64,000 nucleotides of DNA from Geitlerinema sp. PCC 9228 (GTDB lineage Bacteria > Cyanobacteriota > Cyanobacteriia > Cyanobacteriales > PCC-9228), in assembly GCF_001870905.1 (NCBI RefSeq), contig NZ_LNDC01000103.1, positions 1 to 64,000 of the forward strand, written 5' to 3'. Shown here one piece after another: positions 41,831-44,006 of this stretch. Each line of letters opens with the position of its first letter. The first letter of the stretch is position 1. Below the pieces are notes generated by a model that did not search any database, was not told the origin of the DNA, and saw nothing but the letters and a program-made list of their open reading frames with translations. The position numbers were made by a program, and so were the translations under genes.

Positions 41831-41941
41831 CTAGGCGGTAAAACCTAGCAAAATAAAGAGAATGGCACCAATACCAGCAAGAATGGTTAGTACCAAACCA
41901 GCGTTGGGACTTCCTTTCCAAGAATAATTTTTATCTGCCAT
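41831..41941 (-). CDS. 36-residue single-helix membrane protein
   Basis: The ATG at 41941 opens MADKNYSWKGSPNAGLVLTI and the frame ends LLGFTA. Residues 15-35 (GLVLTILAGIGAILFILLG) form one membrane helix. It has the size of photosystem or respiratory accessory subunits, but does not match PsbM/T/I/J/X/Y, PetG/L/M/N or PsaM as I know them. The ribosome-binding site is weak. It is divergent from the 39-residue protein at 42060. The composition and the intact frame support a real gene; the function is unknown. Confidence 0.55.
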   Translation of the reverse strand: MADKNYSWKGSPNAGLVLTILAGIGAILFILLGFTA

Positions 41942-42059: not shown

Positions 42060-42179
42060 ATGGATATAGAAAACACCGCATGGTTGGATGCTGTTGCTGT
42101 TGCCCTTGCCATTGGCTTGGTTATCGGCGCTTTTGCCGTAATGTTCAACGGCGTTCTCACCAAAGTGCGCGATCGCTAG
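42060..42179 (+). CDS. 39-residue single-helix membrane protein
   Basis: MDIENTAWLDAVAVALAIGL begins the product, and the helix spans about residues 9-32 (AVAVALAIGLVIGAFAVMF), followed by a basic end (TKVRDR). CAGGAG lies eight bases before the ATG, a promoter-like pair is at 41994, and a hairpin ends the transcript at 42219. These together make it a convincing small gene despite its size. I do not recognise the family; the topology (short acidic N-terminus, basic C-terminus) resembles small thylakoid subunits. Confidence 0.65.
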   Translation: MDIENTAWLDAVAVALAIGLVIGAFAVMFNGVLTKVRDR

Positions 42180-42218: not shown

Positions 42219-42250
42219 CCGACCTAGCTGTTTGTTGGGTCGGTCGTTTT
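42219..42250 (+). terminator. Terminator after the 39-residue protein gene
   Basis: CCGACC (42219-42224) pairs with GGTCGG (42238-42243), a 13-base loop, followed by TCGTTTT. It separates the small gene from hflX. Confidence 0.6.
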
Positions 42251-42290
42251 ACAATAGAAGAGAAATCGCTAGTAATGGAGGAAAACGCCC

Positions 42291-44006
42291 ATCGAGACCA
42301 TCCACGGAAATCTCAAAGGACTCAAATCCAGCGAACTCAAACAGCTACAAAAACTCTACCGTCAAAAAATCCCCGTCGATGCGATCGCAACCCCCGAATT
42401 TGCCCAACGCCTGGCAGCCATTAGCACCGACATTGGCAAACCCATCTCCACCTACATCAACCGGCGGGGGCAAGTGATTCGCGTGGGCGTGGGAACGCCG
42501 CGACAAACCCAAATTCCGCCCTTAGAATTACCCCGTTACGGGGCTAGCCGCCTGTGTGGAATTCGCTGCATTACCACCCAGGCAAAAGCCCACCCCCCCA
42601 ACGTCGATACCCTGACCACCATGGCGATCCAACGGTGGGATGCCTTGGCTACCCTGATTCTGTCTGGATCGGGGTTTGAACGTCGCGGCGGTGGTCCGAC
42701 GGGTTATATTCAATCCACCTATCTTGCCCATTTAGCCTCCCAATCCAGCCAAGAAGCCACCGAATCGCCAGAAAGTCCCGCCCACTGGCACGTTTCCAGC
42801 CCCTTAAGCCTCGATATCCTTACCAAACAGGACTTTTTGGATTTGGTCGAGGGGTTGGAAGAAGAATTTGAACGGGAACACGTTGCCCTAGAAGTTGAAG
42901 AAGGCAAAGAACGGGTATTGGTGGTGGGGATTGAAACCCAAGAGATGACCCGCGAACAGTTCCAACACCAACTCACCGAACTGCAGCGGTTGGTGGAAAG
43001 CGCCGGTGGTACGGTTTTGGATACCTTGCAGCAAAAGCGATCGCATCCCCACCAGCAAACCGTTGTGGGTTCGGGAAAAGTGGACGAAATTGCCCTCAGC
43101 GCCCAAACCTTGGGGGCGAGTTTGGTGGTATTCGATCGCGATTTGTCGCCTGCCCAAGTCCGCAACGTGGAAACTCGCGTGGGGGTACGGGTATGCGATC
43201 GCACGGAACTAATTTTAGATATTTTCGCACAACGCGCTCGCACCCGGGCCGGCAAACTGCAAGTGGAACTAGCCCAATTGGAATATTTATTGCCCCGCCT
43301 CACAGGTCGCGGGGAAGCCATGTCGCGGTTGGGCGGCGGTATTGGCACGCGCGGTCCTGGGGAAACCAAGCTAGAAACGGAACGACGGGCGATCCAAAAG
43401 CGCATTTCCCGGCTGCAGAAGGAAGTCAACCACTTGCAAGAACATCGGGAACGGTTGCGCCACCGCCGTCAAAGCCAAGATGTGCCTTCCATCGCCATTG
43501 TTGGCTATACCAACGCCGGCAAATCGACGCTTCTCAACGCCCTCACCAGCGCCCACATTTACACTGCCAACCAACTTTTTGCCACGCTAGACCCCACCAC
43601 GCGCCGTCTGGTGGTTCCCCACGCGACCACCCACGAACCGCAAACCATCGTGCTAACGGATACTGTGGGATTTATTCACGAACTACCACCTTCTCTTATT
43701 GATGCTTTTCGCGCTACCTTAGAGGAGGTAACGGAAGCCGATGCCTTGCTGCAGGTGGTGGATCTTTCCCATCCCGCCTGGCGATCGCAAGTGGAATCCG
43801 TTTCCACCATTTTAGGAGAGATGCCCCTGGCACCGGGTCCAATGCTAATGGCTTTCAATAAAATTGATTGCGTGGATTCGGAAACCCTGGAAGCTGCCAA
43901 AGCGGATTTCCCGCAAGCGGCTTTTGTTTCCGCCCAAGACAACATTGGCTTGGAACCCTTGCGCCAAAAGCTGGGGCAATTGGTCCACTACACCACCTGC
44001 GTGTAA
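42291..44006 (+). CDS. hflX: GTPase HflX, apparently initiated at AUC
   Basis: HflX is a ribosome-associated GTPase that splits stalled ribosomes. Conserved coding starts at 42291: IETIHGNLKGLKSSELKQL matches the usual cyanobacterial opening METI(Y/H)GNLKGLKSS, yet the codon at the Met position is ATC. No in-frame ATG, GTG or TTG exists between the upstream stop and the GTG at 42474. GGAGG lies nine bases before the ATC, the proper place for initiation there. Total 571 residues. G1 is GYTNAGKSTLLN, G3 DTVGFIHELP, G4 NKID. The N-terminal HflX nucleotide-binding-2 domain spans roughly residues 170-350. If ATC is not used, a shortened 510-residue form from GTG would lack about 60 conserved residues. 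Confidence 0.9.
   Translation: METIHGNLKGLKSSELKQLQKLYRQKIPVDAIATPEFAQRLAAISTDIGKPISTYINRRGQVIRVGVGTPRQTQIPPLELPRYGASRLCGIRCITTQAKAHPPNVDTLTTMAIQRWDALATLILSGSGFERRGGGPTGYIQSTYLAHLASQSSQEATESPESPAHWHVSSPLSLDILTKQDFLDLVEGLEEEFEREHVALEVEEGKERVLVVGIETQEMTREQFQHQLTELQRLVESAGGTVLDTLQQKRSHPHQQTVVGSGKVDEIALSAQTLGASLVVFDRDLSPAQVRNVETRVGVRVCDRTELILDIFAQRARTRAGKLQVELAQLEYLLPRLTGRGEAMSRLGGGIGTRGPGETKLETERRAIQKRISRLQKEVNHLQEHRERLRHRRQSQDVPSIAIVGYTNAGKSTLLNALTSAHIYTANQLFATLDPTTRRLVVPHATTHEPQTIVLTDTVGFIHELPPSLIDAFRATLEEVTEADALLQVVDLSHPAWRSQVESVSTILGEMPLAPGPMLMAFNKIDCVDSETLEAAKADFPQAAFVSAQDNIGLEPLRQKLGQLVHYTTCV

Follow-up and report, generated by a model that had tools for sequence, protein, structure and literature searches.

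Where translation begins in a frame that lacks ATG, GTG and TTG over the first 61 codons of a conserved protein is the question raised by the hflX gene in a 64,000-nucleotide (nt) stretch of Geitlerinema sp. PCC 9228 (assembly GCF_001870905.1, contig NZ_LNDC01000103.1, positions 1 to 64,000), hereafter the window. On the forward strand, the hflX frame is open from a TAA (42273-42275), itself directly preceded by an in-frame TAG (42270-42272), to 44006, and its codons from 42276 onward read TGG AGG AAA ACG CCC ATC GAG ACC ATC CAC GGA AAT (WRKTP-IETIHGN), with no in-frame ATG, GTG or TTG between the TAA and the GTG at 42474, which lies 61 codons past the ATC at 42291. The original prediction had described this gap and a GGAGG nine bases ahead of the ATC, and had proposed AUC as the start. 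Both features are as described, the GGAGG being a Shine-Dalgarno (SD) sequence at 42277-42281 with a 9-nt spacer (placed by sequence only), and the proposal is supported by the conservation of the codon through the phylum, by upstream stops that in many species leave no other start, and by a paralogue, hflX2, that has ATG at the same codon. The coding sequence accordingly spans 42291 to 44006 (571 codons plus stop), with conservation from the ATC onward, and its product is identified as HflX by NCBIfam TIGR03156 (471 bits, cut-off 216.75) and by the Pfam domains GTP-bdg_N, GTP-bdg_M and MMR_HSR1, all above their cut-offs; it is the single full-length hflX copy in the genome. The comparison described below makes it very probable that hflX of this and nearly all cyanobacteria is initiated at a near-cognate AUC or AUA codon.

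The hflX start codon in related genomes

The main comparison set comprised 244 related loci, in which AUM denotes AUC or AUA and AUH denotes AUU, AUC or AUA. The codon aligned to the window ATC (42291-42293) is ATC in 129 of the 244 loci and ATA in 83, so that the orthologues do not have the methionine codon that had been expected of homologues at this position; ATG there is confined to the hflX2 paralogue and one outgroup. Counting distinct AUM loci only (186), the codon ends in C in 63% and in A in 37%. When 391 genomes of the window's order were scanned by pattern, the ATC/ATA form was recovered in 262, and the ATG form matched hflX2 only, with zero ATG matches for hflX1. In 39 of 46 family-level groups, one or more loci have an AUH start with the six codons before it free of canonical in-frame starts. 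The window's genome is a draft assembly of 223 contigs, which might point to a sequencing error or to a start that degenerated in this genome alone, but the same near-cognate codon occurs in more than 200 independent loci, including complete chromosomes, and this explanation is refuted by the comparison, its remaining likelihood being negligible. Since independent genomes agree on the near-cognate codon, it is unlikely that resequencing would return ATG at 42291.

Codon periodicity begins exactly at the AUC/AUA codon. Per-position entropies are 0, 0 and 0.95 at codon 1 and 0.10, 0.09 and 1.65 at codon 2, and no such pattern is seen upstream. In hflX2, which forms a well-supported clade (support 100), ATG occupies the identical codon and is followed by the same protein start, METIYGNIQGLKSSH. 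These data bear on whether HflX might instead begin at the first downstream canonical codon, GTG 42474-42476, the preceding 61 codons being untranslated. GTG is a normal start, and annotation limited to ATG, GTG and TTG would pick it, but the skipped stretch shows strong protein conservation, the variation being at third positions, the corresponding stretch of hflX2 begins with ATG, and the first canonical start lies anywhere from 7 to 110 codons in (median 40), depending on the species. The GTG itself encodes residue 62, within the conserved stretch; the AlphaFold model of HflX has a strand at residues 61-67, to which little weight is given because confidence is low (predicted local distance difference test score 55). 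The conservation of the skipped stretch leads us to reject GTG 42474 as the HflX start, and we give it a very slim chance of being correct. ATG-started hflX2 loci are present in several cyanobacteria (L164-L168, L178, L269, L338, L343, L344, L348-L351), and in two hflX2 variants (L167 and L262) the ATG is shifted by one codon.

Initiation at AUC/AUA is further supported by the sequence ahead of the codon, since the frame is closed by a stop within six codons upstream in 81 of the 212 AUM loci, with no ATG, GTG or TTG between, the layout in Nostocales often being TAA ACG CCT ATA. Recoding, in which a ribosome from a canonical codon in another frame would shift into the hflX frame near the ATC, could in the window draw on an ATG in the +2 frame (42275-42277) that overlaps the SD and whose frame runs to 42424. 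No conserved slippery site was seen, and 81 of the 186 distinct loci have, in the 60 nt upstream, no canonical start in any of the three frames from which reading could continue uninterrupted to the AUM codon; frameshifting is therefore not a general explanation and is exceedingly improbable. Two other processes were set aside: A-to-I RNA editing could convert AUA to AUI and leaves AUC unexplained, and no conserved intron-like sequence indicative of an intron or trans-splicing lies upstream, where no further test was made.

Family f13 (L197-L200, L257 and L258) is a natural escape experiment, in which an ATG was gained at codon -2 and the former isoleucine (Ile) start codon has drifted to ACA, ACT or ATT. 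Near-cognate starts also occur outside the window's class, where hflX begins with ATC behind GGAGG in one genome (G069, L183) and with ATT behind GAGGAGG in another (G079, L184), and these starts behind strong SDs suggest that the near-cognate hflX start arose early. Another near-cognate variant is seen in G058 (L261), where hflX seems to start with CTG (GGAAGACCGCC CTG ACT GAA ACT ATT TAT GGT).

SD, hairpin and pre-start hexamer

In the window the SD lies at a functional distance from the ATC, and relatives have either a direct SD or a G-rich SD separated from the start by a hairpin, although a clear SD is not present in all of their loci. The hairpin, found at a fixed position between the G-rich SD and the start in about one third of loci, approximates GGCCAG-NNNN-CTGGYC (Nostocales, Microcoleus, Okeania and others), and in 79 of 97 hairpin loci its end lies at -11 or -12. 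Pairing at the fixed register (0.57) exceeds that at every slid register (0.29 to 0.40), and the stem varies in a compensatory manner (CCAG/CTGG, CCAC/GTGG and CCAA/TTGG). Of the 62 loci with a fixed-register hairpin, 58 have the G-rich SD immediately 5′ of it and just three at the usual distance, which is why the hairpin seems to move a remote SD into reach of the start; a usual-distance SD is present in 50 of 101 loci that lack the hairpin. A hairpin between SD and start is also found in the T4 gene 38 type of leader, where it shortens the effective spacing, but that leader has an AUG start and a phage-specific hairpin, while here the arrangement recurs in many Nostocales, Microcoleus and Okeania hflX leaders. 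A shared, known cis-regulatory RNA was rejected, as neither the window leader nor the leaders of four relatives matched an Rfam family.

The start codon is preceded in the window by the hexamer ACGCCC (42285-42290), the consensus in relatives, from positional frequencies, being ACGCCT. Over the 186 distinct loci GCCU at -4 to -1 is present at 81, 81, 78 and 92% per position, while in the background of long ATG-started open reading frames (ORFs) nearby U is at -1 in 34% and GCCT occurs in 0 of 219. The -1 U could pair with A37 of the initiator tRNA, offsetting the third-base mismatch. The same hexamer raises the question of whether the start is instead ACG at codon -2 (42285 in the window), a near-cognate of AUG, with Ile as residue 3. 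This is favored by the composition of codon -2, which is ACG in 75 and ATG in 20 of the 186 loci, with ATG, GTG or TTG there in several clades. However, codon -2 is a stop in seven AUM loci and AAG, GAG, ACA or others elsewhere, ACG 42285 lies just 3 nt from GGAGG, and a start at -2 would give no reason for ATT and ATG to be avoided at the Ile codon. In addition, infC has the same ACG/ATG-CCT ahead of its own GTG, from which we take ACG at -2 to be context and not a start; an ACG start has a slim chance of being right.

The infC gene, which encodes initiation factor 3 (IF3), has GTG as its start codon in 26 of the 27 loci of the same group that could be read (L113-L142, of which L132 is the window's genome), and AUU is not used. 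This GTG is often preceded by (A)CGCCT, ACACCT or ATGCCT, the same hexamer as in hflX. The ACGCCT hexamer is no broad signal, since a genome-wide search for ACGCCT starts in one Nostocales genome found only hflX and one other, GTG-started, ORF. In G057 (L316/L317), a 193-codon ORF (VVEQQKQEPEIPELSRTQVLVAMG...) opens with TAA ACGCCT GTG and is the sole other AACGCCT start that turned up in that genome. In the infC of G021 (L119), GTA is aligned with the GTG of the other loci and may be a further near-cognate start.

Avoidance of AUU before G

ATT makes up 52% of the internal Ile codons of the same hflX genes, and 45% of those followed by G. At this usage about 79 ATT codons would be expected among the 177 distinct loci whose start codon is followed by G, whereas none was observed at loci without another start nearby. 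Between ATC and ATA, by comparison, at least 16 switches are placed on the tree. A first idea, that ATT never occurs, was dropped because AUU starts with a non-G second codon do exist, and it gave way to a rule of UUG overlap. Such AUU starts, lacking an upstream canonical codon, are found in three species of genus g9 (ATT AAT; L230, L232 and L234), in L255 and in L184. ATT starts number zero with a G-initial second codon and five without, as against 139 and one for ATC/ATA (Fisher p = 1e-8, in a test where species are not independent). Codon 2 is GAN (glutamate or aspartate), so AUU-GAN would contain a UUG shifted by one base, a canonical start in the wrong frame, and AUU is apparently excluded before G for this reason. 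Such a rule is sensible only if ribosomes select the start at this place. The comparison thus indicates that the AUC/AUA codon is held by selection, not by accident, as AUG is avoided though ATA to ATG is a single transition, and AUU is avoided before G.

Several observations weigh against initiation at AUC/AUA throughout the phylum. About one quarter of AUM loci also carry an in-frame ATG, GTG or TTG within six codons upstream, and there the AUM codon need not be the start. The trait is not shown by marine picocyanobacteria or by families f39, f41 and f43. A genuine AUU start before G does exist (L354, ATT GAT, from a wider scan), as a lone exception. Finally, species counts are not independent, and the tree is quick and shallow, with many weak forks.

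IF3, HflX level and the surroundings of the gene

For initiation at AUC/AUA, the proposed mechanism is that the initiator tRNA would read the codon, giving methionine as the first residue, and that initiation would lean on a good SD, or on a G-rich SD kept near the start by the conserved hairpin, while U at -1 may extend pairing to A37. With so weak a codon, the amount of HflX made would depend on proofreading by IF3, a factor that discriminates against weak pairs at the third base (PMC10158994). HflX acts on 70S and 100S ribosomes by splitting them, an activity known for the S. aureus and E. coli proteins (PMC6060826), and its level would then rise when free IF3 is limiting. That the AUC/AUA start puts HflX synthesis under IF3 proofreading is a tentative reading to which we give somewhat less than an even chance; like the weak translation that the original prediction had also raised, it is reasonable by analogy with E. 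coli infC, and the GTG start of cyanobacterial infC counts against it. Control of hflX by the state of translation is made plausible by Bacillales, where hflX is preceded by the attenuator uORFC-6-1, predicted to sense translation (PMC8632094). Synthesis of HflX would in both cases be tied to the state of the translation machinery, but Bacillales uses a leader peptide and attenuator and not an unusual start codon.

The main functional rival to IF3 control is that the AUC/AUA start is genuine and merely fixes a constant low level of HflX, with no IF3-dependent switch, which comes close to an even chance. Near-cognate starts are weak in a related chloroplast system, where changing the petD AUG to AUU or AUC in Chlamydomonas lowers initiation (earlier work cited in PMC9845219), and the analysis turned up no regulator. 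On the other hand, low output could be attained with GTG, TTG or a poor SD, yet the AUM codon persists alongside a good SD (or hairpin-SD) and a conserved context, as if the codon itself mattered. A more elaborate form of IF3 control, in which a dedicated hflX start-codon sensor (AUC/AUA, U at -1 and the ACGCCU box common to infC) would read the supply of IF3 or free 30S subunits, and IF3 and HflX would have formed one homeostatic free-subunit circuit since early in the phylum, is rather unlikely.

A near-cognate start is, as a kind, already known from E. coli infC, whose AUU start underlies autocontrol by IF3 (Butler, 1987; Brombach and Pon, 1987, both cited in PMC9845219). The hflX start resembles it in having a near-cognate AUH codon, a good SD and a product that acts in the ribosome-subunit cycle, with IF3 discrimination as the proposed logic. 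It differs in the gene, in the use of AUC/AUA and not AUU, for whose avoidance there is an explanation, in its SD-hairpin layout and in conservation documented across a phylum; moreover, HflX is not IF3, so its control would not be autocontrol. E. coli pcnB, which encodes a low-abundance RNA-related protein, likewise has a near-cognate start, AUU, but phylum-wide conservation is shown here for cyanobacterial hflX. Non-AUG starts of chloroplasts, such as the GUG of psbC (PMC9845219), share conservation, dependence on context and the cyanobacterial-plastid lineage, but are GUG, UUG or ACG and not AUC/AUA. No report of an AUC/AUA start of hflX was found in the open-access literature searched, subscription papers and preprints being outside its scope.

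Bacterial starts beyond AUG, GUG and UUG are treated as curiosities, with infC as the textbook case, and an AUC/AUA start kept across a phylum would mean that near-cognate initiation can persist as a stable trait whose rules are readable, namely no AUU before G, U at -1, and an SD or SD-hairpin. Gene finders limited to ATG, GTG and TTG are expected to truncate HflX in hundreds of genomes, and with the hflX start one can ask directly by genetics whether ribosome splitting is regulated through IF3 proofreading.

Near hflX in the window are two short, membrane-like ORFs, at 42060-42179 (forward strand, 39 amino acids) and 41831-41941 (reverse strand, 36 amino acids), neither of which matches a Pfam or NCBIfam family. 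A sigma-70 scan found no full site upstream of hflX. A terminator-like hairpin lies 5′ of the gene on the forward strand at 42219-42243 (one such hairpin found, with 0.6 expected by chance), followed on the same strand by a candidate -10 element, TACAAT (42250-42255), and together they suggest that the window hflX may be served by a promoter of its own, which would leave a leader of about 30 nt.
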